Of a stretch of 64,000 nt of DNA, positions 49,994 through 64,000 are shown one piece after another. The DNA lies in contig NZ_CP075190.1 of assembly GCF_020510585.1 (NCBI RefSeq), forward strand, positions 3,904,001-3,968,000, read 5' to 3'. Numbering within the stretch: the first letter of the stretch is position 1; each line of letters starts with the position of its first letter. The notes below the pieces were generated by a model, which worked only from the letters and a program-made list of their open reading frames with translations, was not told where the DNA came from and made no database searches. Source of the stretch: Ferribacterium limneticum (lineage in GTDB: Bacteria > Pseudomonadota > Gammaproteobacteria > Burkholderiales > Rhodocyclaceae). The translations under genes were made by a program, and so were the position numbers.

Positions 49994-50009
49994 AGCAGAA
50001 AGCATGCCA
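49994..50009 (-). promoter_or_regulatory. Sigma-54 promoter of glnA
   Basis: On the minus strand TGGCATGCTTTCTGCT has the invariant GG and GC exactly ten bases apart and fits the -24/-12 consensus. Transcription would start near 49982, giving a leader of about 60 bases before the glnA ATG. Confidence 0.8.
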
Positions 50010-50072
50010 AAGCTCGGCGAGTAATCTTTGTATTTTGCCACAACGGGATGCAGGGTTTAAGCAAAGAATTGA

Positions 50073-50089
50073 CGCACCGCGATTGTGCA
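50073..50089. promoter_or_regulatory. Putative NtrC binding site 1 (glnA)
   Basis: CGCACCGCGATTGTGCA is a near-palindrome resembling the NtrC consensus TGCACC-N5-GGTGCA. Its centre is about 99 bases upstream of the predicted start. Confidence 0.7.
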
Positions 50090-50103
50090 ACACACAAAAT
50101 TAA

Positions 50104-50120
50104 CACACTAATTTGGTGCA
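50104..50120. promoter_or_regulatory. Putative NtrC binding site 2 (glnA), overlapping the CDF gene end
   Basis: CACACTAATTTGGTGCA closely matches known enterobacterial NtrC sites. Its centre is 31 bases (three helical turns) from site 1. It includes the stop codon (50108-50110) of the upstream CDF transporter gene. Confidence 0.75.
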
Positions 50121-51280
50121 ACAAGGCAATTCAGGGATACGCGCCGAATCAAGGGGTGCAACTTCAGGCGATCGACCAGAAGATTCTCGGCCTGACGAAG
50201 CGCCTCGCCGTTTTGAAACAGGTCGTGGCTGAAAAAGATTTCGGCCTCCACTTGGCCTTTCAGGTAATGCAGGACGATTTTTTGCGGTTCGGGCAGACCG
50301 GCGAGCAGTGGCTGCAATTCGCCGAGCAAGGCATCGCGTGCCGGGAGGCGGGTCGCGTAGCTATCCGGATCCATGTCGTCTTCGGGATCGATGTGCACGA
50401 GCACGTCAAGCACCTCCGGATGTTCGCGCAGAACCCTGGCGCGCGCCGATTCGGCAATGCGATGCCCCTCGGAAACGCTGATCCGGGAATCGACCTGAAC
50501 ATGAGTGTCGACCAAGGCCTGATGCGCCATGCGCCGGGTCCGCAGCTGATGCAGATCACGCACGCCCGGCGTCGCCAGCAGCGTCTTCCGGATGGCTTCG
50601 ACCTGGACGTCGTCGAGGCCGGTATCGATCAGTTCCTTGATGGCTCCCCAGGCCAGACGGGCGCCCATGTGGAGGATCATGAAACCCATCAGCGCCGCCG
50701 CCAGCAGGTCGAGGAAGGACCAGCCCATCAGCGCGCCGCCGATGCCGACCACGACGACCAGCGCTGACGCCGCATCGGCCCGCGTGTGGAGAGCATTGCC
50801 AATCAACAATTGCGAACGCAGTTTTTCGGCAACGCGAATCAGGTAGCGATACAGGGCCTCCTTGGAAAGCACCGTGGCGACCGCCACCCAGAAGGCAGCG
50901 AGTTCGACGGTCGGCAAGGCCTCGATGTGCTGAAGACGCATGCCCGATTCCCAAAGGATGCCGCCGCCGATCAGAGTCAGCGAGGCTCCGAGCACCAGCG
51001 TCGCAGCGGTTTCGACGCGGGCGTGGCCGTAGGGATGGGCCCGGTCGGCCGGGTGGGCGCTCTGCCGGGTGGCGTAAATGACGAGAAAATCAGAGAGCAG
51101 GTCAGAGAACGAGTGCAATCCGTGGGCGACCAGCGACTGCGAATGGGCCAGCCAGCCGACGATCAGCTGGGCGACGGTCATCACCAGATTGACCGCGACG
51201 CTGACCCAGGTCGCCTTCTGCGCCGCAGCCGAACGCTCGGCCGGCGTAGCGGAGACGGCGAGGTGATGCTCAAGTCCCAT
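50108..51280 (-). CDS. Cation diffusion facilitator (CDF) transporter
   Basis: 390 residues. Six membrane helices with the metal-site motifs HGLHSFSDLLSDFLV in helix 2 and HTRADAASALVVVVG in helix 5 (HxxxD pairs), AHPYGHARVETAATL in the first loop, and a C-terminal regulatory domain (HQALVDTHVQVDSRISVSEG). It exports divalent metal ions such as zinc, iron or manganese against protons. It carries about 80 extra C-terminal residues compared with minimal CDFs. Its 3' end overlaps an NtrC site of glnA. Confidence 0.92.
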   Translation of the reverse strand: MGLEHHLAVSATPAERSAAAQKATWVSVAVNLVMTVAQLIVGWLAHSQSLVAHGLHSFSDLLSDFLVIYATRQSAHPADRAHPYGHARVETAATLVLGASLTLIGGGILWESGMRLQHIEALPTVELAAFWVAVATVLSKEALYRYLIRVAEKLRSQLLIGNALHTRADAASALVVVVGIGGALMGWSFLDLLAAALMGFMILHMGARLAWGAIKELIDTGLDDVQVEAIRKTLLATPGVRDLHQLRTRRMAHQALVDTHVQVDSRISVSEGHRIAESARARVLREHPEVLDVLVHIDPEDDMDPDSYATRLPARDALLGELQPLLAGLPEPQKIVLHYLKGQVEAEIFFSHDLFQNGEALRQAENLLVDRLKLHPLIRRVSLNCLVAPN

Positions 51281-51327
51281 GATGTCTGCCCTATACTATT
51301 AACGTGCAATTTTAACAGTTGGACATT

Positions 51328-51780
51328 ATGGGAAAGTTAACCGAAATACTCAGTCTGGCGCAGGCGCGTGGCAAAGCCCTTGGCCGCCCCTATCAGGGCG
51401 AACTGACGCCGCAAGAGGCGGGCGACTTGTTGCGCCTGGCGCCCGGCGCCAAAATTGTCGATGTCCGGACCCGGGCCGAATGGGACTGGGTTGGCCGGGT
51501 CGCCGGCGCCGTCGAGATCGAGTGGAATCAATATCCGGGCGGCGTGCGCAACCCGAACTTCATGGCCGAACTCAAGCGTCAGGTCGATCCCGAAGCGCTG
51601 GTCATGTTCCTCTGCCGCAGCGGCGTGCGCTCGGTCGCCGCGGCCGCCGCCGCCACCGAAGCCGGCTACAACAGTTGCTATAACATCCTCGAAGGCTTCG
51701 AGGGCGACAAGGATGCCAATGGGCACCGCAACACCATCGGTGGCTGGCGCAAGGCCGGAATGCCGTGGATTCAGGGATAA
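51328..51780 (+). CDS. Rhodanese-like protein
   Basis: 150 residues. A single rhodanese domain: AGDLLRLAPGAKIVDVRTRA, and the catalytic cysteine in VMFLCRSGVRSVAAA. It probably transfers sulfane sulfur. I start at the ATG 51328 (MGKLTEILSLA); an in-frame TTG at 51319 is the alternative. A dispersed repeat copy follows immediately after its stop (51782-51820). Confidence 0.9.
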   Translation: MGKLTEILSLAQARGKALGRPYQGELTPQEAGDLLRLAPGAKIVDVRTRAEWDWVGRVAGAVEIEWNQYPGGVRNPNFMAELKRQVDPEALVMFLCRSGVRSVAAAAAATEAGYNSCYNILEGFEGDKDANGHRNTIGGWRKAGMPWIQG

Positions 51781-51781
51781 T

Positions 51782-51820
51782 CCCACGGTCAACCGGAAAT
51801 AACGGCCAAAAATGAAATGG
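51782..51820 (-). repeat. Dispersed repeat copy F (between rhodanese and nadA)
   Basis: The best-preserved copy. On the plus strand it reads CCCACGGTCAACCGG, then AAATAAC, then GGCCAAAAATGAAATGG. It is intergenic, 20 bases before the nadA ATG. Confidence 0.85.
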
Positions 51821-51839
51821 CCCAAGATCAGAGTACAGC

Positions 51840-52937
51840 ATGCAAACAGCCACCATCGCCTTCGACCCCTTCAACCGCCTCTCCGACGAGGCCTGCCATG
51901 AACGCATCCGTATCGCCCGGGCCAAGCTCGGCAAGCGGGCCGTCATCCTCTGCCATCACTACCAGCGCGCCGACGTCTATCAGTACGCCGACCTGACCGG
52001 TGATTCGCTCAAGCTGTCGCGGCTGGCCTCGCAGACCGATTCGGAATTCGTCATTTTCTGCGGCGTGCACTTCATGGCCGAAGTCGCCGACATCATGACC
52101 GCCCCGCACCAGAAGGCCATCCTGCCCGACCTCGCGGCCGGCTGCTCGATGGCCGACATGGCCAACCTGGCCAAGGTCGAGCGTTGCTGGCGCGAATTGA
52201 ACAGCGTGCTGAACGCCGAAGAGGAAGTTACCCCGGTCACCTACATCAACTCGGCGGCCGATCTCAAAGCCTTCTGCGGCGAGCATGGCGGCATCGTGTG
52301 CACCTCGTCGAATGCCGGCACCATCGCCAAATGGGCCTTCGAACGGCGGCCGAAAGTGCTGTTCTTCCCCGACCAGCATCTCGGCCGGTGGACCGGCCAC
52401 AACATGGGCATCGCGATGGACGAAATGGTCGTCTGGGACCCCGACCTCGAACTCGGTGGCCTGACGCCGGCCCAGATCAAGAAGGCCAAGATCCTGCTCT
52501 GGAAGGGCCACTGCTCGGTGCACCAGATGTTCCAGAAATCGCACATCGACGCCTTCCGCGCCAAATACCCGGAAGGCAAGGTCATCGCCCACCCGGAATG
52601 CAATTTCGAAGTCTGCGCCGCCTCGGATTACGTCGGCTCGACCGAACACATCGTCAAAACCATCAAGGAAGCGCCGGAAGGCACGCGCTGGCTGGTCGGC
52701 ACCGAACTGAACCTGGTCGACCGTCTGGCCAAAGAGGTTTTGCCGCAGAACAAGATCGTCCAGTTCATGGCCACCACCGTCTGCATGTGCTCGACCATGC
52801 AGCGCATCGACCCACAACACTTGGCCTGGACACTCGAAAACCTGGTCGACGGCAAGGTGGTCAACCAGATTTCCGTACCGGCCCACGAAGCAACGCTGGC
52901 CAAGCTGGCCCTCGACCGCATGCTGGCGATTTCCTGA
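51840..52937 (+). CDS. nadA: Quinolinate synthase A
   Basis: 365 residues. NadA condenses iminoaspartate with dihydroxyacetone phosphate to quinolinate, using a 4Fe-4S cluster. Motifs: AVILCHHYQRADVYQYADLT, FCGVHFMAEVADIM, AAGCSMADMANL with one cluster cysteine, HPECNFEVC with the second and CMCSTM with the third. NadB and NadC are not in the window. Followed after seven bases by an EEP-family gene. Confidence 0.95.
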   Translation: MQTATIAFDPFNRLSDEACHERIRIARAKLGKRAVILCHHYQRADVYQYADLTGDSLKLSRLASQTDSEFVIFCGVHFMAEVADIMTAPHQKAILPDLAAGCSMADMANLAKVERCWRELNSVLNAEEEVTPVTYINSAADLKAFCGEHGGIVCTSSNAGTIAKWAFERRPKVLFFPDQHLGRWTGHNMGIAMDEMVVWDPDLELGGLTPAQIKKAKILLWKGHCSVHQMFQKSHIDAFRAKYPEGKVIAHPECNFEVCAASDYVGSTEHIVKTIKEAPEGTRWLVGTELNLVDRLAKEVLPQNKIVQFMATTVCMCSTMQRIDPQHLAWTLENLVDGKVVNQISVPAHEATLAKLALDRMLAIS

Positions 52938-52944
52938 CACCGCC

Positions 52945-53703
52945 ATGACCCAGCCCGCGCTGCATGTCACGACCTACAACATCCACAAGGGCTTTTCGCA
53001 ATTCAACCGGCGGATGATGGTGCATGAGCTGCGCGAGCGCCTGCGTCATCTCAACCCGGACATCGTGTTTTTGCAGGAGGTGCAGGGGCTGCACCTCGGC
53101 CATGCCGAAACGCATGACGACTGGCCCGATTCGCCGCAGCACGAATTCCTCGCCGAAGACGTCTGGGCGTCCTCCGCTTATGGCCGCAACATGGCCTACG
53201 ATCATGGCCACCATGGCAACGCCATCCTCTCGCGTTTCCCCATCCTGCATACGCACAACCAGAACGTCACCCACCTGCGTTTCGAAAAGCGCGGCATGCT
53301 GCATTGCCGGATCGAACTGCCGGGCGGTCAGACGGTGCATTGCGTCTGCGTGCACCTGTCGCTGTTTGGTTATTCGCGGCGCAAGCAGATGGCGGCGCTG
53401 GCCGATTACCTCGATCACCTGGCCGAACCCGACGCCCCGCTCATCGTCGCCGGCGATTTCAACGACTGGCGCAACCGGGTCGGCGAAGACCTGACTCGGC
53501 GTCTCGGCCTGCGCGAAGTCTTCTGCGGACCCAGCGGCATACCGGCCTGCAGCTTCCCCGCCGCCATGCCGATGTTCCGCCTCGACCGCATCTACGTGCG
53601 CGGCTTCGATGTGATCAGCACCGAAGTCCATCACGGCAAGCCGTGGTCAGCCATTTCCGATCACGCCGCGCTGTCGGCTCACCTGACCAGGCATGGCCGC
53701 TGA
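52945..53703 (+). CDS. Endonuclease/exonuclease/phosphatase family protein
   Basis: 252 residues. EEP-fold motifs: TTYNIHKGFSQFNRR, NPDIVFLQEVQGL with the metal-binding glutamate, VCVHLSLFGYSRRKQM, PLIVAGDFNDWRNRVGE and the closing SDHAALSAHL. Members without a DNA-specific domain act as phospholipid-head or nucleic-acid phosphodiesterases. It overlaps the cardiolipin synthase gene by 11 bases, a common ybhP-clsB pairing, which favours a lipid role. Confidence 0.9.
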   Translation: MTQPALHVTTYNIHKGFSQFNRRMMVHELRERLRHLNPDIVFLQEVQGLHLGHAETHDDWPDSPQHEFLAEDVWASSAYGRNMAYDHGHHGNAILSRFPILHTHNQNVTHLRFEKRGMLHCRIELPGGQTVHCVCVHLSLFGYSRRKQMAALADYLDHLAEPDAPLIVAGDFNDWRNRVGEDLTRRLGLREVFCGPSGIPACSFPAAMPMFRLDRIYVRGFDVISTEVHHGKPWSAISDHAALSAHLTRHGR

Positions 53704-54886
53704 GTTTGTGCCGGGCAACCGGCTGACTCTGCTCAACTCGGGCGACGACTATTTCCCGGCGCTGCTCGCCGCCATCGACGCCGCCGAAGTCGAGATCTAC
53801 CTAGAAAGCTACATCTTCGCCAATGACGAGGTCGGCCAGGCGGTGGCCAGCGCCCTGTGCCGGGCGGCCGATCGCGGCGTCCAGGTCAATGTCACGGTTG
53901 ACGGCTTCGGGGCGCGCAATTTCAAATTTGACTATTTTTCCCGGTTGACCGCAGCAGGCGTGCGCGCCATGTTTTACCGGCCCGAGATCGGCCGCTACCA
54001 CTTCAAGCGCCACCGGCTGCGTCGCCTGCATCGCAAGCTGGTCGTCATCGATGCCCGTACTGCCTTCGTCGGCGGCATCAATATCATCGACGACAACAAT
54101 GCACCGTTCGACATGCGCCCGCACTACGACTACGCCGTGCGCGTCGAAGGGCCGGTCCTCCACCAGGTGCACCACGCCGCGCGGCGCATGTGGGAAACCG
54201 TGTCATGGGTCAACTTCAAGCGGCGCTTCCGCCTCGCTCCGGTCGCCGCGCCGGTCTGCGAACTCGCCGGCAATCAGACGGCGGCCTTCCTGATCCGCGA
54301 CAACATCCGCCACCGCAACGACATCTTGCACGCCTATGTCGACGCCATCGACAACGCCAAGCACGACATCCTGATTGCCAACGCCTACTTCCTGCCCGGC
54401 ATCCGCTTCGGCCGGGCGCTCTACGGCGCGGCCCAGCGTGGCGTGCGCATCACCGTGCTGCTCCAGGGCAAGAGCGATCACCAGCTATTTCGCTACGCCA
54501 CCCAGACGCTGTACGCCACGGCCCTGGCGGCGGGCATTCGTATCTTCGAATACGAAAAGAGTTTCATGCACGCCAAGGTCGCCGTCATCGATGGCCAGTG
54601 GGCCACCGTCGGCTCATCGAACATCGACCCGTTCAGCCTGCTCATGGCCAAGGAAGCCAATCTCGTCGTGCGCGATGCCGGCTTTGCCGGCGAACTCGAA
54701 GCCAGCCTGAAGAGCGCCATGGCCAGCGGCGCCCGCGAACTGCTCGCCGAAGAACTGTCCCGCCAGCCCATCCACTCCCGCTTTCTGCGCTGGCTGGCCT
54801 ACGGGCTGGTCCGCGCCATGGTCGGCATTGCCGGCTACAGCCAGCGCCACTGGCAGAGCGAAGAAACTACGCCAGAGGAACGATGA
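53693..54886 (+). CDS. clsB: Cardiolipin synthase B
   Basis: 397 residues. Two phospholipase D HKD motifs are present: HRKLVVIDARTAFVGGINII and HAKVAVIDGQWATVGSSNID. It lacks the two N-terminal membrane helices of ClsA, as expected for ClsB. It joins two phosphatidylglycerol molecules, or PG and PE, into cardiolipin. A dispersed repeat copy (53918-53953) is translated in frame (FKFDYFSRLTAAG). Converges on gluQ with a 20-base overlap. Confidence 0.93.
   Translation: MAAEFVPGNRLTLLNSGDDYFPALLAAIDAAEVEIYLESYIFANDEVGQAVASALCRAADRGVQVNVTVDGFGARNFKFDYFSRLTAAGVRAMFYRPEIGRYHFKRHRLRRLHRKLVVIDARTAFVGGINIIDDNNAPFDMRPHYDYAVRVEGPVLHQVHHAARRMWETVSWVNFKRRFRLAPVAAPVCELAGNQTAAFLIRDNIRHRNDILHAYVDAIDNAKHDILIANAYFLPGIRFGRALYGAAQRGVRITVLLQGKSDHQLFRYATQTLYATALAAGIRIFEYEKSFMHAKVAVIDGQWATVGSSNIDPFSLLMAKEANLVVRDAGFAGELEASLKSAMASGARELLAEELSRQPIHSRFLRWLAYGLVRAMVGIAGYSQRHWQSEETTPEER
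53918..53953 (+). repeat. Dispersed repeat copy G (inside clsB)
   Basis: CAATTTCAAATTTGACT, then ATTTTTCCC, then GGTTGACCGCA. The core GGTTGACCG and the spacing are kept; the GGCC block is altered. In frame in clsB. Confidence 0.65.
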
Positions 54887-55775
54887 TCGCCGGTTGCCGG
54901 GGAATGGCCTCGAACGACCAGTTCTTCAGTGCCCAGGCCCAGACCTCGGCGACCGTCGCCTGTGCCAGTTCGGCCGGCGCCGCCTGACCGAGAAAATCCA
55001 AGGCCCGAACCAGCTCGGCCGCCGCGATATCGCTCGCCAAAGGCCGAGCCAGCGTCTGCTTCGACAGCTTTTCACCGGCCGCATTGGCCGCCACCGGCAG
55101 ATGGGCGTAGCTCGGCGTGGCAAAGCCCAGACAGCGTTGCAGCCAGATCTGGCGCGGTGTCGAGGCGAGCAGATCGGCACCGCGCACGACTTGCGAAATT
55201 TGCTGAAAATCGTCGTCTACCGTGACCGCCAGCTGATAGGCGAACAAACCGTCGGCCCGGCGCAGCACGAAGTCGCCGACATCGCTTTCGAGATGCTGGG
55301 CGACGCGTCCCTGCAGGCGATCAGCGAAGGCGATTTCCTCATCATTGACGCGCAGCCGCCAGGCCCGCGCCTCCCGCCCGGCTGGCAAGCCGGTGCGGCA
55401 AGTGCCGGGATAAGCCAGCCCGCCATCAATCGCCGGGCGCGTCGCCGAATCGGCGATCTCCTTGCGCGAACAGGCGCAGCCGTAGGCCAGACCGGCACCC
55501 TGCAATTGCGCCAGCGCCGCTGCGTAGGCATCGAACCGGTTGCTCTGATACAACACCGGCCCGTCCCATTCAAAGCCGAAAACCTCCAGCGTGTTCAGGA
55601 TGGCATCTGCCGCCCCCGCCACGTTGCGCGGCGTATCGACATCCTCCATGCGCACCAGCCATACGCCGCCCTGCGTGCGTGCATCGAGGTAGCTGCCAAC
55701 GGCGGCAACCAGGGAACCGAAGTGCAGGGGACCAGTGGGCGATGGGGCGAAACGGCCGCGGTAGGCGTTGGTGGA
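54867..55775 (-). CDS. gluQ: Glutamyl-Q tRNA(Asp) synthetase
   Basis: 302 residues from GTG 55775 (STNAYRGRFAPSPTGPLHFG), the usual position; an in-frame ATG at 55829 would add 18 residues. It is a truncated GluRS without the anticodon-binding domain. It has the HIGH-like GPLHFGSLVAAVGSYLDAR, a zinc site (GCACSRKE) and KLSKQT (KMSKS-like). It attaches glutamate to queuosine in tRNA-Asp. Convergent with clsB. Confidence 0.92.
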   Translation of the reverse strand, partial: STNAYRGRFAPSPTGPLHFGSLVAAVGSYLDARTQGGVWLVRMEDVDTPRNVAGAADAILNTLEVFGFEWDGPVLYQSNRFDAYAAALAQLQGAGLAYGCACSRKEIADSATRPAIDGGLAYPGTCRTGLPAGREARAWRLRVNDEEIAFADRLQGRVAQHLESDVGDFVLRRADGLFAYQLAVTVDDDFQQISQVVRGADLLASTPRQIWLQRCLGFATPSYAHLPVAANAAGEKLSKQTLARPLASDIAAAELVRALDFLGQAAPAELAQATVAEVWAWALKNWSFEAIPRQPAIIVPLA

Positions 55776-55939
55776 CACGATATTGAGCGATGGCAGGAGC
55801 GAATCCGGTTCGCGACTATACCAAGCCATCGGTCCGGAACTGAAGCGCCCGGATTTTCTGAAGGGAATCTTCGGGCCGCCCTGCTTGTCCGAAAGAGGAC
55901 CGTCCGGTAAAAGCAAACAATCGATTCACCAAGGCCCCC

Positions 55940-57646
55940 ATGGACCACAACATCCCCCTGATCACCACACTGGCGGCCGGCTTCGGTATCGCCCTGATCC
56001 TCGGCTTTGCCGCCGAGCGCATGAAACTGCCCGCGCTGGTCGGCTACCTCGCCGCCGGCATCCTGATCGGCCCGGCCACACCGGGCTTCGTTGCCGACAT
56101 GCACATCGCCGCCCAGTTGTCCGAAATCGGCGTCATGCTGCTCATGTTCGGCGTTGGCTTGCATTTTTCGCTGGGCGACCTGATGGCCGTCAAGCGCATC
56201 GCCGTGCCTGGGGCCGTCGTCCAGATGGCCTGCGCCACCCTGCTCGGCATGGCCGTGGCCTGGGGTTGGGGCTGGGAGTGGGGGCACGGCCTGCTGTTCG
56301 GTCTTTCGCTGTCCTGCGCCAGTACCGTCGTGCTGCTCAAGGCGCTCGAAGCCAGAGGCGTTCTCGACAGCATGAACGGCCGGATCGCGGTCGGCTGGCT
56401 GGTCGTCGAAGACCTGGCCACGGTTCTCGTCCTCGTTCTCCTGCCGCCGCTGGCCGGCATTCTCGGCGGCGAGGCGCAGTCTGCCGGCGGCAATCCGGAA
56501 GTCTGGCTGGCGATTGCCAAGACGTTGCTTCAGGTCTGCGCCTTCATCGGCCTCATGATGCTCGTCGGCCGCAAGCTCATCCCGTGGCTGCTCTGGCACA
56601 TTGCCGCCACCGGCTCGCGTGAGCTGTTCACGCTGTCCGTCGTCGCCGCGGCCATCGGCATCGCCTACGGCGCAGCCGAGCTGTTCAGCGTGTCGTTCGC
56701 GCTGGGCGCTTTCTTCGCCGGCATGGTCATGCGCGAGTCGGAGTTCAGTCATCGGGCGGCCGAAGAATCCCTGCCCCTGCGCGACGCTTTCTCCGTGCTG
56801 TTCTTCGTTTCGGTCGGCATGCTTTTCCAGCCGTCGATTCTGGTCGACAAGCCTTGGCAGGTCTTGGGCGTCGTCGCCATCATCATGCTCGGCAAAACAT
56901 TGGCCGCAATGGCGCTGGTCCTTGCCCTGCGCTACCCGCTAAATACAGCCCTGACCGTCGCCGCCAGCCTCGCCCAGATCGGCGAGTTTTCCTTCATTCT
57001 GGCCGGGCTCGGCCAGTCCCTGGGCCTGATGACGAGCGAAGGGATGAGCCTGATCCTGGCCGGCGCATTGATCTCGATTGCCCTCAACCCGCTGATGTTC
57101 TCGGCCATCGAACCGCTGCGGAGATGGGCGCTAGGCAGGTCAGCAAAGGCTCGAGAGCTCGAGCAACGCGGCGATCCGTTTGCCGAACTGCCGATGAGTA
57201 CCGAGCGCAAGTTTCTCGAAAAGCAGGTCGTCCTGGTCGGTTACGGCCGGGTCGGGCGGCGGATTGCCGAGGCGCTGGATCGCCAGGGGATTCCTTACGT
57301 GGTCGCCGAGCAAAACCGGGAACTGGTCGAGAGCCTGCGCGACAAGGGTATCGCCGCCGTCTCCGGAGACGCCAGCGAGCCTTCGGTACTGATTCAGGCC
57401 CATATCTCCGACGCGGCCATGCTGGTCATCGCCAGCCCCGACCCGATCAACGTTCGCCAGATGGTCGACACAGCACGGACCCTCAACCCGGACATCGAAA
57501 TCGTCCTGCGCACCCACAGCGAGGCCGAGTCGGAGATGCTGCGCAAGGACAAGCTGGGCACCGTTTTTCATGGCGAAGAGGAATTGGCCAAAGGCATGAC
57601 TGGCCATGTGCTGGCGCGTTTTACCCGGCAGCTTGAGCCGGCTTGA
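55940..57646 (+). CDS. KefB/YbaL-like cation:proton antiporter with RCK domain
   Basis: 568 residues. About twelve membrane helices (LVGYLAAGILIGPATPG, LMFGVGLHFSLGDLM, SLAQIGEFSFILAGLGQSLG) form a CPA2 antiporter. The C-terminal part is a TrkA-N Rossmann domain (VVLVGYGRVGRRIAEALDRQ, IASPDPINVRQMVDTA). It probably exchanges K+ or Na+ for protons under nucleotide or glutathione control. Last core gene before the right-hand accessory region. Confidence 0.92.
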   Translation: MDHNIPLITTLAAGFGIALILGFAAERMKLPALVGYLAAGILIGPATPGFVADMHIAAQLSEIGVMLLMFGVGLHFSLGDLMAVKRIAVPGAVVQMACATLLGMAVAWGWGWEWGHGLLFGLSLSCASTVVLLKALEARGVLDSMNGRIAVGWLVVEDLATVLVLVLLPPLAGILGGEAQSAGGNPEVWLAIAKTLLQVCAFIGLMMLVGRKLIPWLLWHIAATGSRELFTLSVVAAAIGIAYGAAELFSVSFALGAFFAGMVMRESEFSHRAAEESLPLRDAFSVLFFVSVGMLFQPSILVDKPWQVLGVVAIIMLGKTLAAMALVLALRYPLNTALTVAASLAQIGEFSFILAGLGQSLGLMTSEGMSLILAGALISIALNPLMFSAIEPLRRWALGRSAKARELEQRGDPFAELPMSTERKFLEKQVVLVGYGRVGRRIAEALDRQGIPYVVAEQNRELVESLRDKGIAAVSGDASEPSVLIQAHISDAAMLVIASPDPINVRQMVDTARTLNPDIEIVLRTHSEAESEMLRKDKLGTVFHGEEELAKGMTGHVLARFTRQLEPA

Positions 57647-58068
57647 TTTGTCTCCATTACGCCGCTGTTCTGAGCAATTAGTGTCGAAAACTACCATCGT
57701 GGATTAAGGTGGGTTTCAAGACTACTGATCCTGAAGGCTAAATTGTTAATGTCGAAAACTCAACGCCTCGACCGGTAGCAAAACCCCATCGCCCCAACAA
57801 TTAAAGTCGAAAACCCGATTTGATCGCCGTAATTGCACACCGGTAAAAAAATCGCTGTTGTTCCGCCTCCGGTTATTCGACGGTGTGAATCGCCCGGCCC
57901 CATTAGATACTCCTGATCCTTAAACCTAAGGTCAAGCAGTCCCATTTGCAAGATCTGCCGTTGATCTTGCATTACCAGCCCCTTTGTATTTCAGATCTTG
58001 CACTTCAGCATCCGATTTAACGAGCAGCGCCTAAAAGGCAATTTCAACGCTGCAAAAGGAGAATCGGC
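57647..58068. other. Intergenic region with three TGTCGAAAAC-type repeats
   Basis: This 422-base AT-richer stretch has no convincing gene. Three direct copies of an 11-base motif occur: TGTCGAAAACT at 57682-57692, TGTCGAAAACT at 57750-57760 and AGTCGAAAACC at 57805-57815, each preceded by an ATTA-like tract. A CAAGATCTGCCGTTGATCTTGC inverted segment lies near 57950-57970. The pattern resembles a transposon end with multiple transposase sites. Confidence 0.6.
57682..57815 (+). repeat. Three-copy direct repeat, possible Tn7/Tni-type transposon end
   Basis: Copies start at 57682, 57750 and 57805 (distances 68 and 55). The outermost copy begins with TGTCG, which resembles the terminal bases of many TniA/TnsB-type elements. 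The other end and any target duplication are outside the window, so the assignment is tentative. Confidence 0.45.
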
Positions 58069-58680
58069 ATGTCTGAACCATATGAGTGCAATTGGGCTAA
58101 AACGCAGGCTTATTCCTTCATCAAAGCGATGCGCTTGGCATCCTTGGCGCACCACAACCAAGTACGCCTAGATGGAACCCCTGCGCTATGGCATCCAATC
58201 GATGTCGTACATCTGCTTCAGCTGCATGGCATTAGAAACGTGTCCATTCTCTGTGCGGGCTTATTGCACGACGCACTAGAAGACAACCCGAGTCGACGCG
58301 AAGAACTTCGTCACAACATACTGCATGAATTAGGCAAGCCGGTACATGACTGGGTGGTCATGCTTTCCGATTCACAAGAATTGGTGACGAGTGAAGCACG
58401 CAAAGCCGCGCAACTCCGAAAAATGCACTCCGCACCAGCGGAAGTCCGAATAATCAAGCTCGCAGACCGACTAGCTAATTTACTAAGCGGACCAGCGCCC
58501 GCCTGGAGCGCTGCCAAATGCACGGCCTATGTCCGCCATTCAAGGGATTTGCTGCAGGTGGCGCAGACGCCGCATGCCGAATTACAGCGATCAATTCATA
58601 GGGTGTTACGTGAGCACCCTTGGAAAGCGTTCGACGCAACCTGCAAGACGAACGATCCAGCAGCAGATCGCGAGGCCTGA
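58069..58680 (+). CDS. HD-domain hydrolase related to SpoT/MESH1 alarmone hydrolases
   Basis: 203 residues. RLASLAHHNQVRLDGTPALW followed by HPIDVV, then CAGLLHDALEDNPSR (HD dyad) and VRIIKLADRLANL match the (p)ppGpp hydrolase domain of RelA/SpoT; no synthetase or TGS/ACT domain is attached. It may degrade alarmones or related nucleotides. AAAGGAG precedes the start. It opens the right-hand accessory operon. The link to the downstream protease and PBP genes is by strand and position only (about 90 bases to the next gene). Confidence 0.8.
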   Translation: MSEPYECNWAKTQAYSFIKAMRLASLAHHNQVRLDGTPALWHPIDVVHLLQLHGIRNVSILCAGLLHDALEDNPSRREELRHNILHELGKPVHDWVVMLSDSQELVTSEARKAAQLRKMHSAPAEVRIIKLADRLANLLSGPAPAWSAAKCTAYVRHSRDLLQVAQTPHAELQRSIHRVLREHPWKAFDATCKTNDPAADREA

Positions 58681-58770
58681 TCGCCAAATTTTTTCCCGAC
58701 AGTCACAGGAATCCTGATCGGGTCGCACTGCGAGATAACGAACCAATCAAGCGATGACAAGGAGATCAAC

Positions 58771-59019
58771 ATGACACGAAAACCAAGCAAGAAAGCCCCG
58801 ATATCTGTCACCCCAGGAATTGATTGGCATGACGAAAAGCAACCCACTGCTCGCAACAAGAAGAAAAACAAGCCAACGCCAACACAGCGCTTGGCGACCA
58901 TGAGCGATTTGACTGCTTACCTCGCAAAAGCCGACGAGCCAGCGACGCTTGCCGACATTGAATTGCTGCAAACGGTGGCACGGGCGCAAGACATCGATAT
59001 CGCCTCCCTGGAGATCTGA
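58771..59019 (+). CDS. Small unknown, Lys-rich N-terminus
   Basis: 82 residues, unrecognised. The first 40 residues are basic and probably disordered (ARNKKKNKPTPTQRL). The rest is a predicted helix pair (MSDLTAYLAKADEPATLADI, LQTVARAQDIDI). An AAGGAGA site precedes the ATG. It ends two bases before the AAA/protease gene, so it may be a substrate adaptor or subunit of that protein. Confidence 0.65.
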   Translation: MTRKPSKKAPISVTPGIDWHDEKQPTARNKKKNKPTPTQRLATMSDLTAYLAKADEPATLADIELLQTVARAQDIDIASLEI

Positions 59020-59021
59020 AA

Positions 59022-61916
59022 ATGAGCCAGCAAATAACTGATCGCAACAAGACCCTGCCCAACCCCTTGGCCGACCCCGCATGGGCGCCTGTGGTGGACG
59101 TTATTCGCAAATGCGTGTTTCGGCGCGACCGCGAGGCTACCCACATCACACTGGAAGATTTCCGGGAATCGTTGCGTTACCTCGAGATTCGTTCCGAGGC
59201 AAAAAAATTCCTGACCAAGGAGTTGGGCGAACTTCCCCCAGCTGCCAATGAAGCGGAAATCCGGAGCCTGCTTAGCATTGACAATAGCGGACAACAACGA
59301 CTGCGCTTCGAGGATAACCCTGGTGCCTTGTTCAAGAAGGCACTCCAACGCTACGAATATTTCTTGTCTCTGGCCCCGCTTTCCAGCCAAGGCCAATTGC
59401 AACATGTATTCCGAACGCTGTTGGCCGCTGGGAAGAAAATCCCTGGTCAGGGATTGGCAGCACAGGATGCCGCGCAGCAGTTGGCCATTGCCTTAACGGA
59501 CAAAAATCGAGCGTTACCGGTATCGCTATTCCTTCATGGGCCGCACGGCTGCGGCTGCCGGGAAATGAGTTCAGCGATCGCGCAAGCCATGGCGGGACTT
59601 GGTTATGCCCCCCTTGAACTAGACCTTTCCCAATATCGAAATGAGGGAGAAGAAGCCAGCATTCGGGGATCAAAGCCCTATTGGTCGGGCTCCCGAGCGG
59701 GGGATGCGACGGGGTTCATTCACCAGCATCCGAAAGCAGTCGTCGTCGTCCACAATGCCGACCGTAGCCTGCCCAGGGTTCTCGAAGCCTTCATGCAGCC
59801 GCTCACGACGGGCAAGTGGGTTGACCAATTCGGACTTGAAGACTCCGACGAAGGCCCACCGCGAGGAAGCAGCAAGCGTTCCCCCACCACGGTCGATTGC
59901 AGGCAAGCCGTGTTCGTTTTCAATGCCAGCAGCGAAGGTAGCCAGTGGTACCAGAATCCTGACTACCAAAAATTTCTCGACGCGCATGGCCACGACTTGC
60001 TGCTCGAGGCCATGCGCGACGCGACACAGGAATTTCGGGGGGAGACCTTGCCTGTTTTCCATGGACCGCTCCTCGACACAATCGGGAAATCCTTCGTTCG
60101 CCTGCCCCCTGTTTCCTGGGTCGATTTACGTGCAGCAGCCAAGGACGGATTGCAGCAAGCCAGCCGCAAGATTGGCCGACGCTTTGGCTGTCAGCTCTCA
60201 GTAAAAAATGCGCGTGCAATCGCCGACCTTCACTTGTTGCGGACTGCGCCAACGCAAGGGGTTAGCGCCTGCAACGCGAAATCCTTTGAGGAAGGTTTAT
60301 TTGCCGACGTCGCAAGCTGGCGCATCAACAACGAAACCGATGCATCCGCCAAACTGGATATTTCCCCGGAGGCCATCGACCAGCTGGAAAAGATCCTCGA
60401 CGCGTTGGGAAACGATCCTGTAGCAACACTCAAACGCAAGACGCAAAGCGTTCTGTACGCCGTCTCGATTGAAGAAGATGAGGTCAACGGAGTACGTTTC
60501 ATCGTGCGTGATGTCAGGTTGCAAAAGACCCCTCGGTTGAAGGACTTTACCGGCGAAATCCACCTTGAAGCGAGCGTTCCCGATGTCCGGTTTGCCGATG
60601 TAGCCGGACACACCGAGGCCAAAGACTTCTTCCGCGAAATGATCGGCTATTTGCGTCGCCCAGCGCTGGTTTCCGCAATCGGTATCGATCTCCCGAAAGG
60701 TGCGCTTCTCTACGGCGAGCCAGGCACCGGGAAAACCAAGCTCGCCCAGGCGTTTGCCGGGGAAGCAGGCCTGCCCTTCATCGCGGTGACCGGAGCAGAC
60801 CTCCTTTACCCGCAACGGATTTCCGAGCTCTATCGAATCGCCCGGAGCGTTGCCCCGTGTGTCATTTTCATCGATGAAGTCGATGTCATCGGCAAGCGTG
60901 GCCAGAACGGCGCTGCACACGACACGGCGATAAACACCTTATTGACCAGCATCCAGGGGTTCGCTCAGGGACAGGAAATCTTCCATATTCTGGCCACCAA
61001 TCGCCCGCACTCGCTGGATGAGGCCGTGGTGCGCCCGGGCCGTATTGACCGCAAATTCTATTGCGGCGCACTGGATCGCGAGGCGCGAGCCGGCATGATG
61101 AAGCGCCTGACCAAGGTTGCGAAGCTTGCGCCGAAGGCAATCGATCGCCTGCTACCACTAACCTACGGCATGACCGGCGCGGACTTCGAGCAAATCGTGC
61201 GCGCCGCGGGACTGCGCCGCCTGCGTCTGGAGTCGGATCGCGCCTTGAGTGTTGAAGAAGTCATCGATGAGATCAACACGCAGAAGTTTGGCGAGAAGCG
61301 GCGCGGCCTCAAATTCGATGCCAACACCCGCCGCCGCATCGCCCTGCACGAAATCGGCCACGCCGTCCTGCTGTCTATCCGCCAGCCCGACTTGCCTCTC
61401 GAAGTAGTCACCATCACGCCGCGGCGTAATGCGGCTGGTTTTGTGTCGGTGAATGCCGAGAATTTTGAACTGGCTGAAGAAACGCCCAACGCGGTACGTA
61501 ACTTCCTCGCCTGCCGTCTGGCCGGGCGCGCCGCCGAAATGATCGCGTACGGCGATGAAGGCCGCTCCTCCGGCGCAACATCCGATCTCAGCGTTGCCAC
61601 CCGCGCAGCCTACCGCGCCGTCGCCTACAGCGGACTAGACGCGGAGATGCCCGTAGGATCGATTCTCGGCTTCAGCGAGTTCGGCGAAAACATCCCAGCC
61701 CCCCTCGTACATAAGGCCTGGGAAAGAACACAGATCTGGTTGCAGGAAGCCGAAAAGGAAGCCATCCAGGTGCTGCAGGAACACTGGCCATTGGTCTGTT
61801 TCCTCACCGACATGCTGCTTGAGAAGGAGCACATCAGCGGCGAAGAGTTTACCGAACTGGTTGCCGGCTTTCACGCCGAGCAAACACCCACGATCCAATC
61901 GGGAGAACAATCATGA
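59022..61916 (+). CDS. Fusion of an inactive ClpB-type AAA module with an FtsH-type AAA and M41 metalloprotease
   Basis: 964 residues, with no membrane helix. Residues about 160-440 align with the second AAA module of ClpA/ClpB (ELDLSQYRNEG, SLFLHGPHGCGCREM, HPKAVVVVHNADRS), but the Walker A lysine is cysteine and the Walker B DE is HN, so it cannot hydrolyse ATP normally. From about 525 an FtsH AAA follows with intact GEPGTGKTKLA, CVIFIDEVDVIG and RPGRIDRKF, then the M41 protease with HEIGHA near 775 and the third zinc ligand in SGATSDLSVAT near 855. A soluble ATP-dependent protease with a built-in ClpB-like pseudo-ring is very unusual. Confidence 0.85.
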   Translation: MSQQITDRNKTLPNPLADPAWAPVVDVIRKCVFRRDREATHITLEDFRESLRYLEIRSEAKKFLTKELGELPPAANEAEIRSLLSIDNSGQQRLRFEDNPGALFKKALQRYEYFLSLAPLSSQGQLQHVFRTLLAAGKKIPGQGLAAQDAAQQLAIALTDKNRALPVSLFLHGPHGCGCREMSSAIAQAMAGLGYAPLELDLSQYRNEGEEASIRGSKPYWSGSRAGDATGFIHQHPKAVVVVHNADRSLPRVLEAFMQPLTTGKWVDQFGLEDSDEGPPRGSSKRSPTTVDCRQAVFVFNASSEGSQWYQNPDYQKFLDAHGHDLLLEAMRDATQEFRGETLPVFHGPLLDTIGKSFVRLPPVSWVDLRAAAKDGLQQASRKIGRRFGCQLSVKNARAIADLHLLRTAPTQGVSACNAKSFEEGLFADVASWRINNETDASAKLDISPEAIDQLEKILDALGNDPVATLKRKTQSVLYAVSIEEDEVNGVRFIVRDVRLQKTPRLKDFTGEIHLEASVPDVRFADVAGHTEAKDFFREMIGYLRRPALVSAIGIDLPKGALLYGEPGTGKTKLAQAFAGEAGLPFIAVTGADLLYPQRISELYRIARSVAPCVIFIDEVDVIGKRGQNGAAHDTAINTLLTSIQGFAQGQEIFHILATNRPHSLDEAVVRPGRIDRKFYCGALDREARAGMMKRLTKVAKLAPKAIDRLLPLTYGMTGADFEQIVRAAGLRRLRLESDRALSVEEVIDEINTQKFGEKRRGLKFDANTRRRIALHEIGHAVLLSIRQPDLPLEVVTITPRRNAAGFVSVNAENFELAEETPNAVRNFLACRLAGRAAEMIAYGDEGRSSGATSDLSVATRAAYRAVAYSGLDAEMPVGSILGFSEFGENIPAPLVHKAWERTQIWLQEAEKEAIQVLQEHWPLVCFLTDMLLEKEHISGEEFTELVAGFHAEQTPTIQSGEQS

Positions 61917-62455
61917 GCATTAGAAAACCTTGGTTCCTTTGCGGCGCAGACTTCCCGGATATCTTTATCGACGATTTCGTCGAAAAGGCCGTAATCCCGC
62001 CGGTTTTTGTCAGCGATTTCGACACGAAAAAATTCAGTCGAATGGTATTGGGGGCCTTGTCGCTCAGTCTGGAAGAGAAAACCCGGATTTTTGACTCCCT
62101 CCCCACGCTGTCGCTTTTCCAATGCGATGAACTGGAAAAGGTCTTTACTGACGAAACCAGCTCATTCACCAATCTACCCGACGAGTTTCCAATCGTGCTG
62201 CGCCTTTCTGCTGCCAGCGTCATCGGCGCCTATGCATTGGCGCTGCATCGTGGTGCCGGCACCGCCGATGTAGCCGAGGAAACCGCCATGATTCAAGCCA
62301 TGGGGAGCGCAAAACGAAAGTCCAGCAAACGCCTGCAGGGATTTCTCAAAACCATGCCCAGACACCAACCCGTCGTGGATTACGTCTACGGCGAAACGCA
62401 GCTCCGCCATTCCGGTGCACCGGAAATTCCCGAGTTTCTACGCCAAGGGATTTGA
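61913..62455 (+). CDS. Unknown protein between the protease and the SEDS-PBP fusion
   Basis: 180 residues, unrecognised. Mixed helical sequence (FSRMVLGALSLSLEEKTRIF, LRLSAASVIGAYALALHRGA) with no signal peptide. The start overlaps the protease stop (ATGA) and the end is two bases before the next gene, so it is tightly coupled to both. It could be an adaptor or substrate-delivery factor; that is only inference. Confidence 0.75.
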   Translation: MSIRKPWFLCGADFPDIFIDDFVEKAVIPPVFVSDFDTKKFSRMVLGALSLSLEEKTRIFDSLPTLSLFQCDELEKVFTDETSSFTNLPDEFPIVLRLSAASVIGAYALALHRGAGTADVAEETAMIQAMGSAKRKSSKRLQGFLKTMPRHQPVVDYVYGETQLRHSGAPEIPEFLRQGI

Positions 62456-62457
62456 CC

Positions 62458-64000
62458 ATGACTACCTCAACCTTCAAATGGATGGCATCCTTGGCTATCG
62501 CCGCAGGCATCACCCTGACAAACCTGTGGATACTCAATCACTTGGTTGGTCACGGACGCCATGGCCTGTTGATCGCCCAAGCCTGGTCAGGCGTCGTAAT
62601 TATTCTGGGACTCTGCTACGCAGCGGGACAGTTCCCGAAGCTGCAGGACAACCGCCAGACAACAGCAACCGACCGCCAAACCTGGCTTAAGGCCGCCATC
62701 TGGACATTTGTCTGTTCCGGTTTTCCCTGGCTTACCCTCCCCGCCGGCGGTGCCCTCGGCCTTTTTGCGGCCGCCTGCTTTATTGTGCTGATCTGGCGCA
62801 CACCCGATGGTGACTCGACCGATAGATTCTGGCGTAGCGCCCTACTTGCCGGACTACTGGGTTTTACTGCGCTGCTTGCCTCGCTTCTCCAAGGTAGCCC
62901 GTATCGCCTGGCCCGCCTGATGGCTGATTTCAGCGGCCCACTCGACCTCCTGGGGCGTCATTACGACCATGGCTTGGTTTTGCGCACGTTGTTTGGCGTG
63001 CACCTGCTGGGCGAAGCCAGCAACACGCTACCGGAGCGGATCAATAACCTGATGCTGCTCCGTATTTCCCACTGGCAAGGCGCCCTACCCGCTGCACTGG
63101 TTGCCAGCGCCGTGCTCATGCTTTGGCAACAAATCCATGCCTGGCTAATACGCATCGCCCCTGGGATACATCTCTCGCCAGGTATGAAACGCTTGGGCCT
63201 GGCACTCGTTGCTCTCCACGGTATCTCAGCCCTAGGGAACGTACTCTGGAATTTTGGCCTGACGCGCCAATCCTTCGGGCTGGTGCTACCGCCCCTGACG
63301 ACAAATGCCGCCTGGTGGCTATTGTCGGCATGCCTGACCGGGATCATGTTCCTTGCCTACCGGCAAAACGCTCAGGCGCACGAAATGCAGCCGATCAGCA
63401 CCCATCGAGTCTGGCAAACGGCCGGCGCACTCACCGGTTTCGCTGCGCTTGTGAGCTTTGGTCTGCTGCTCGCCATCGATAGCGCCAAGGATGTTTACGC
63501 CGCCAACCGTGCGCCAGAGGCAAAGCAGATCGTTCGGCGCGGCATCACAGACCGCAACGGCACACCCATTGCCACCTCGACACCAGCGTTCGACCTGTGG
63601 CTCATCCCCAAACAATTCTGGGGAACCTCACCCGCCAACCCTGGGCCATCAACGGCGTCTGCGGAGCCCAACGATCAGCAACGACGTACCCAACTGCTCG
63701 GCGCAATGGCGGAGTGGCCACAGTTACGCACCATCGTTGAAGGCCGGATAAACGGCTATGGCAAATCTGACGAGCAGCAAAAAATCCTCGCCTGGGCCAT
63801 CAAGCCCGAGGTGGCAGAAAAAATTTCCGCTACCGGTTTAAGTGGTCTGAAACTGACCCAACGTCCAGCCAGACATTACCCGCAAGGCGGGCTTTTTGCC
63901 CATCCCTTGGGCTTTGTCTCACTCGCCGCCCCTACCCATGGGCAGGATGGGCTCGAGCTGGCAGAAAACCTGATGCTTCTTCATATGGTAACCAAAAGCG
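62458..64000 (+). CDS. SEDS-like polymerase fused to a class B PBP dimerisation domain (3' end beyond the window)
   Basis: The frame is open from ATG 62458 to the window end, 514 codons. About nine or ten hydrophobic segments come first. The later ones resemble FtsW/RodA (HGISALGNVLWNFGLTRQSF, LVLPPLTTNAAWWLLSACL). The loop expected to hold the catalytic aspartate reads LPERINNLML, with asparagine in its place. After a further membrane helix near residue 330 comes a class B PBP start: RRGITDRNGTPIATSTPAF, then RHYPQGGLFAHPLGF and GQDGLELAENLML. A transpeptidase domain is expected outside the window. One-polypeptide SEDS-PBP fusions are rare. Confidence 0.78.
   Translation, partial: MTTSTFKWMASLAIAAGITLTNLWILNHLVGHGRHGLLIAQAWSGVVIILGLCYAAGQFPKLQDNRQTTATDRQTWLKAAIWTFVCSGFPWLTLPAGGALGLFAAACFIVLIWRTPDGDSTDRFWRSALLAGLLGFTALLASLLQGSPYRLARLMADFSGPLDLLGRHYDHGLVLRTLFGVHLLGEASNTLPERINNLMLLRISHWQGALPAALVASAVLMLWQQIHAWLIRIAPGIHLSPGMKRLGLALVALHGISALGNVLWNFGLTRQSFGLVLPPLTTNAAWWLLSACLTGIMFLAYRQNAQAHEMQPISTHRVWQTAGALTGFAALVSFGLLLAIDSAKDVYAANRAPEAKQIVRRGITDRNGTPIATSTPAFDLWLIPKQFWGTSPANPGPSTASAEPNDQQRRTQLLGAMAEWPQLRTIVEGRINGYGKSDEQQKILAWAIKPEVAEKISATGLSGLKLTQRPARHYPQGGLFAHPLGFVSLAAPTHGQDGLELAENLMLLHMVTKS

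Follow-up and report, generated by a model that had tools for sequence, protein, structure and literature searches.

We describe a soluble AAA+ zinc protease from Ferribacterium limneticum in which a pseudo-Clp/ClpB D2 module, stripped of its catalytic residues, is joined in one chain to an FtsH-type AAA domain and an M41 protease domain. Its gene lies in a stretch of 64,000 nucleotides of contig NZ_CP075190.1 (positions 3,904,001 to 3,968,000; hereafter the window), as cargo of what is very probably a Tn7-like transposon. This architecture is well supported and we regard it as secure; it was computed directly, as were the predicted fold, the pattern of losses and conservation, a single clade of proteins with a dead first ring, next to a live-ring relative as the first branch, and the mobile context. 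The mechanism and the biological role rest on inference. As a proposal with moderate support, we suggest that labor is divided between the rings, so that the dead ring would grip the substrate and the FtsH ring, which lacks an FVG loop of its own, would drive it; we give this reading a little less than an even chance.

Architecture of the protease and its family

The open reading frame (ORF) begins with ATG, with GGAG 8 bases upstream, and its domain layout is given in Table 1. Pfam places AAA at residues 562-681 (114 bits) and Peptidase_M41 at residues 766-946 (73.9 bits, cut-off 29.9), both above cut-off. For residues 1-118 the Pfam search returned no family at E <= 1, and the notion that they form half a Clp_N repeat was dropped because no family match supported it. 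A hydropathy scan of the whole chain found no transmembrane helices of the kind present at the N-terminus of FtsH. The maximum 19-residue hydropathy is 1.36, and therefore no transmembrane helix is expected; the N-terminus consists of the helical domain and an AAA fold. The original prediction, made from the sequence of this DNA, had likewise proposed a protease without a membrane anchor.

That prediction also assigned the N-terminal module to the D2 class of ClpB and held that its Walker A lysine and both Walker B acidic residues had been lost, and both points are borne out. Seven NCBIfam Clp-type models (ClpV, ClpK, two of ClpB, two of ClpA, and ClpG) match within residues 127-271 with E values of 7e-8 to 6e-4, each well short of its curated cut-off, and among the 25 of 32 NCBIfam families shown, Clp-type models alone match the N-terminal half. 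Pfam AAA_2 falls below its cut-off on the window protein (residues 168-273, E 0.005) and on P0031 and P0068; of the five relatives scanned, the other three (P0029, P0045 and P0089) score above it. Profile-profile comparison matched residues 119-500 to Clp/ClpB D2-class AAA proteins at 98.2%. A confident model of the N-terminal half, obtained by folding it with 17 diverse members of the family, has structure matches to the same class, and in it the D2 AAA fold is present together with its C-terminal small domain. C179 occupies the position of the Walker A lysine and is followed by R180, H244-N245 replace the Walker B Asp-Glu, and T353 stands at the position of the arginine finger. All of these catalytic residues are lost in 16 of 17 first rings and kept only in P0089. 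The module is thus a ClpB D2 fold and not a ClpB ATPase, and judged by its residues the dead ring should not hydrolyze ATP. Despite these losses, W221 of the dead ring aligns with the pore-loop tyrosine in GAPPGYVG of ClpB D2; this position is tryptophan in 16 of the 17 proteins and tyrosine in one, and it is invariably aromatic in the 16 dead rings.

In the C-terminal half, the M41 site (H776-E777-H780 and D855) and, in the FtsH ring, the Walker A and B residues (K571, D618 and E619), the sensor-1 residue N660, R671 and R674 are invariant in all 17 proteins, as had been expected, while R677 is replaced in three. The original statement that this half keeps every motif proved wrong, however. 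Alignment to the host's own FtsH revealed a six-residue deletion in the live ring exactly at the MFVGVG segment, which removes pore loop 1 (FVG), named as the substrate-binding motif of FtsH in the excerpted text of PMC9020784. The distance from Walker A to Walker B is 49 in the window protein and all 16 relatives, and 55 in 102 of 103 other M41 proteins, the remaining one being not scorable, so that the loss is seen in 17/17 family members versus 0/102 of the others scored. These 103 controls are the 104 non-family proteins among the matches listed, minus P0033, which is without HExxH; an FVG-like loop pattern fits 71 of them, and 31 have the right length without matching the pattern. The FtsH equivalog model TIGR01241 gave 265.3 bits against a cut-off of 600.

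Eight full-length relatives (961-968 aa) came from a protein search with residues 1-560, to which they are 61-93% identical; the same search also returned P0009, a distant Clp-like protein. With residues 515-964 as the query, P0029, P0031, P0032, P0045, P0068, P0069, P0070 and P0089 were added, at 31-49% identity overall. The resulting family size, at least 16 relatives, is a lower bound (the first search scored 7985 candidates, and the second listed 120 of 7632). Two of the 16 bear names, 'AAA family ATPase [Vibrio metschnikovii]' (P0068) and 'cell division protease FtsH', and none has a tested function, so that a body of annotated homologues with known function was not encountered. P0089 (914 aa) has the domain order, the 49-residue spacing and the clade of the family, but unlike all other members it has an intact first ring (GPPATGKT, DE, arginine finger and sensor 1 TSN). 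The family forms its own clade apart from FtsH in both trees that were built, and within it the dead-ring members form one clade, with P0089 branching first.

Full-length matches in species-representative genomes are very rare. The window's own genome was the sole one in each of the overlapping sets searched, all of which include it: 60 genomes as relatives, 395 of the family, 399 of the order, 369 of the class and 398 of the phylum. The other matches in the family-level set were partial (best E 3e-11), and the second match in the class set (G965/L071, E 6e-13) was rejected as a member, its sequence being that of an ordinary double-AAA Clp protein. Scans of genome contigs and viral contigs gave no confirmed locus of the protease family; L044 was excluded because it matches residues 479-694 alone, at 23%, and L045 (Methylobacterium) aligns over 93 residues, with 25% identity. 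In the plasmid and phage records, no place spans as much as 80% of the protease.

Proposed division of labor and its rivals

By analogy with FtsH and ClpB, the protease would most likely be a hexamer of stacked rings, with the helical N-domains followed by the pseudo-ATPase Clp/ClpB-D2-type ring, the live FtsH-type AAA ring and the M41 chamber. A polypeptide would enter via the N-domain and the pseudo-ring, the dead ring would receive and hold it by the aromatic residue at the pore position, and the FtsH ring, driven by ATP, would pull the chain to the zinc site in the chamber. The N-domain and the 180-aa and 82-aa products of the operon are candidate adaptors. We infer the hexamer, the threading path, the adaptors, the client and the biological role, the first three by analogy with FtsH and ClpB.

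An alternative, raised by the original prediction, is that the dead ring serves as a scaffold or docking platform only, like the inactive D1 of Pex1/Pex6, keeping the hexamer assembled and binding an adaptor while its pore grips no substrate. We consider this possible but less likely, though there is precedent for it in the catalytically dead Pex1/Pex6 D1 ring, whose channel shows no substrate density in the excerpted text of PMC10518020. A dedicated partner is also plausible, given that the 180-aa neighbor accompanies at least four of the eight closest relatives, a pairing made solely by equal largest-contig sizes (52692, 14538, 13938 and 139325). However, Pex D1 still binds ATP according to the same excerpt (PMC10518020), whereas the dead ring of the protease lacks the Walker A lysine. 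In addition, W221 is invariant in 16/16 dead rings while the catalytic residues drifted, and the live ring is without the loop that usually grips, so that something else may have to do so. The conserved aromatic in the dead ring, taken together with a live ring that has lost its loop, suggests substrate gripping rather than docking.

Several observations nevertheless weigh against a division of labor. The six-residue deletion is no proof of lost grip: L595, at the shortened loop of the FtsH ring, is invariant in all 17 proteins, so that the live ring may retain some grip on substrate. P0089, with its intact first ring, is also without FVG, which places the loss of the loop before the death of the ring on the tree, and the two losses are therefore no simple swap. 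This placement itself carries a caution, in that the branch of P0089 is long and its position is flagged as unsure in both trees. As for the aromatic residue, the alignment of the loop is uncertain by one residue, between Y220 and W221, and the role of W221 could be structural. The sub-threshold AAA_2 match of the window protein itself also counts against the reading, as does the whole-chain structure model predicted from nine close sequences, which is poor (pLDDT, the predicted local distance difference test, 55) and from which the N-terminal half was not judged. A third explanation, that the N-module is a functionless, decaying relic in an otherwise ordinary FtsH-like protease, is already disfavored and very improbable: its catalytic residues are lost and conservation is lower in the N-terminal half than in the AAA half (61% vs 74% identity in P0008), but 14 of 15 dead relatives keep a length of 947-970 aa (P0045 alone is short, at 819 aa), the dead modules share 41 invariant positions although their identity falls as low as 32%, and their fold is predicted to be intact.

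The Tn7-like carrier, the operon and the biological role

The protease operon is cargo at the left end of an element of 41,907 bp that runs from window position 57666 to G000:4003572. The element ends in TGTTC...GAACA and has three GTCG(A/C)AAAC sites per end, inverted at the right end. Pfam identified a tnsA gene (PF08722), a TnsC-like gene (AAA_22, with TniB just under cut-off) and two tniQ/tnsD genes (PF06527); none of these has an NCBIfam match, and the ORF at the TnsB position (L070, 5232-7538) matches neither Pfam nor NCBIfam. Because of the GCCGC target-site duplication, the inverted ends with their repeats, and the tnsA, TnsC-like and tniQ genes, the carrier is very probably a Tn7-like transposon.

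The element starts 19 bp after the stop (57646) of an antiporter gene (PF00999 and PF02254), which we take to be kefB. Homology to six same-genus loci ends at 57621-57663. In L056, L059 and L060 the antiporter gene is followed directly by a sigma-70-family gene (family tested in L059), presumably rpoH, and the host's copy of that gene lies about 42 kb away from the antiporter gene. Other inserted DNA follows kefB in L057, L058 and L061. With other insertions in three of the six same-genus loci, the junction after kefB is an insertion hotspot; the single paper found to mention both Tn7-like elements and kefB draws no link between them. About 10.8 kb into L061 there are two GTCGAAAAC sites, and a TniQ gene occupies 13797-14939 of this locus. 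Separately, G000 carries a dispersed repeat of about 40-50 bp, with 39 of 40 short matches (40 scored of 414 candidates) at query bases 869-939, just after the sigma-factor gene.

Within the element, the operon comprises in order the 82-aa ORF, the protease, the 180-aa protein, a class-B penicillin-binding protein (PBP), a 128-aa ORF and an FGE-type protein. G+C content is 52-60% in 58000-63999 versus 60-66% in 50000-56999. No sigma-70-type promoter was found in 57600-62600, where 2.1 would be expected by chance, and no Rfam family reached threshold in 57500-64000. The HD domain protein upstream is possibly a small alarmone hydrolase. One relative of the 180-aa protein is labeled Azonexus sp. 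The PBP has a long hydrophobic N-terminal part, and its serine motif reads GSLLTP. The motif expected at the serine site of a PBP is SxxK, and the catalytic lysine may thus be missing. A SEDS-like character of the N-terminal part, suggested by eye, had no PDB match and is not claimed.

Table 1. Coordinates of the protease domains, the neighboring genes and the left end of the carrier element in the window.
Feature	Position	Strand	Remarks
5-bp target-site duplication GCCGC, left copy	57661..57665		perfect right copy at G000:4003573-4003577, directly after the element
Left end of the element	57666..57815		TGTTC terminus and three TTA(A/G)(T/A)GTCGAAAAC repeats
SpoT/RelA-type HD domain protein (HD_4), 203 aa	58069..58680	+	stand-alone, just upstream of the protease operon
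82-aa ORF, no known family	58771..59019	+	preceded by AAGGAG; its stop lies 2 bp ahead of the protease start
Soluble protease ORF, 964 aa	59022..61916	+	pseudo-Clp/ClpB D2 module, FtsH AAA and M41
Protease residues 1-118	59022..59375	+	helical N-domain
Protease residues 119-500	59376..60521	+	predicted catalytically dead Clp D2-type AAA module; C179/R180, H244/N245, T353; aromatic Y220-W221 kept at the pore-loop position
Protease residues 515-760	60564..61301	+	FtsH-type AAA with intact catalytic motifs but without pore loop 1 (FVG)
Protease residues 761-964	61302..61913	+	M41 zinc protease; H776, E777, H780, D855
180-aa protein	61913..62455	+	overlaps the protease gene by 4 bp
Class-B penicillin-binding protein, 876 aa	62452..64000, on to 65082 (L023:3083)	+	4-bp overlap with the 180-aa gene

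Concerning the biological role, the protease, as transposon cargo, may act in conflict with phages or plasmids, as opposed to being a housekeeping enzyme. This is compatible with either mechanism and is judged on a separate axis; we consider it possible, but rather doubtful. It is suggested by a CARF6 gene within the same element (E 9e-132, PADLOC model), by the very patchy occurrence of the protease among the genomes searched, and by the SpoT-like HD gene that adjoins the operon. However, the protease's own PADLOC matches, mainly to IetA, cover generic AAA parts, and the IetA-type model of NCBIfam, which likewise falls on the generic AAA part of the FtsH half, scored 79.4 bits against a cut-off of 510. 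None of the nine neighboring ORFs scanned gave a clear defense match (the HD gene had two weak ones, E 0.002-0.005), and the other cargo is metabolic or of no known kind, Tn7-like cargo being broad. No subtilisin-type IetS partner was found among these nine and 10 further ORFs, which are part of the element's ORFs. A candidate defense cassette lies in the same transposon at L070:12753-13850 and its neighbors, where the CARF6 gene adjoins a PfkB-type gene and a 630-aa ORF that matches AAA weakly.

Relation to known AAA+ proteases

The C-terminal half resembles FtsH and the m-AAA and i-AAA proteases of M41 in its classical AAA with Walker A and B and second region of homology, and in its HExxH and Asp; it shares 33-35% identity with FtsH-type proteins from plasmid records (20 matches listed). 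FtsH is described as a membrane-anchored family in PMC9020784. The protease also differs from FtsH in its extra pseudo-Clp module and its separate clade. Since the membrane anchor, the FVG loop and the equivalog score all fail, we classify the protease as belonging to a sister family of FtsH rather than as an FtsH, although it should work like one. It differs from the D2 ring of ClpB, ClpC and Skd3 (HSP100) in the loss of the Walker A lysine, the Walker B Asp-Glu and the arginine finger, and from HSP100 proteins as a whole in that the chain has no D1 ring or M-domain and is fused to M41 instead of partnering with ClpP. As a separate observation, L025, L026 and loci like them carry open frames roughly 590-740 aa long that include a Clp D2-type GPTG.GKTE motif (seen in 11 of the 19 loci examined), and the pseudo-ring matches L025/L026-type frames slightly better (E down to 3e-11) than it does the host's own ClpB-like gene (1.4e-8).

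Both rings of Pex1/Pex6 are classical AAA rings and carry no protease. Their dead first ring is stacked on a live second one (PMC10518020, excerpt), as may also be the case in the protease by analogy, but the same excerpt describes a heterohexamer whose D1 binds ATP and whose D2 keeps its aromatic pore loops. Multi-AAA M41 proteins (within P0020-P0057 and P0072-P0131) are similar in having at least two AAA modules followed by M41. They differ in carrying two to four intact Walker A motifs, by a scan that is blind to dead modules, and a C-half spacing of 55, and those put in the trees fall outside the protease family. Some are labeled Solirubrobacterales, Thermoleophilaceae or Acidimicrobiales; chains with two M41 sites (P0058, P0064-P0067, P0071 and P0092) are labeled dinoflagellates.

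The claim that no characterized protease has this domain order agrees with our literature search, mostly outside subscription papers and preprints, which retrieved no paper on the architecture. AAA+ proteases, and tandem AAA proteins with an inactive first ring such as Pex1/Pex6, are already known; the pairing of rings, the soluble form and the possible split of grip from motor are new. That the family is the first example of an AAA+ protease with grip and power parted between rings of different ancestry, spread on Tn7-like transposons and perhaps acting as a conflict system, is a fuller claim that we think improbable as a whole.

In general, models of AAA+ unfoldases couple the hydrolysis of ATP in a ring to gripping by that ring's own pore loops. 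Here, a natural family is found in which the two are seemingly separated, with a relative, P0089, that keeps both ATPase rings. Mutation of its members would allow us to ask whether pulling requires an aromatic pore loop in the ring that pulls and whether a dead ring is able to grip, in an FtsH-type protease that has no membrane anchor and is carried on a transposon.
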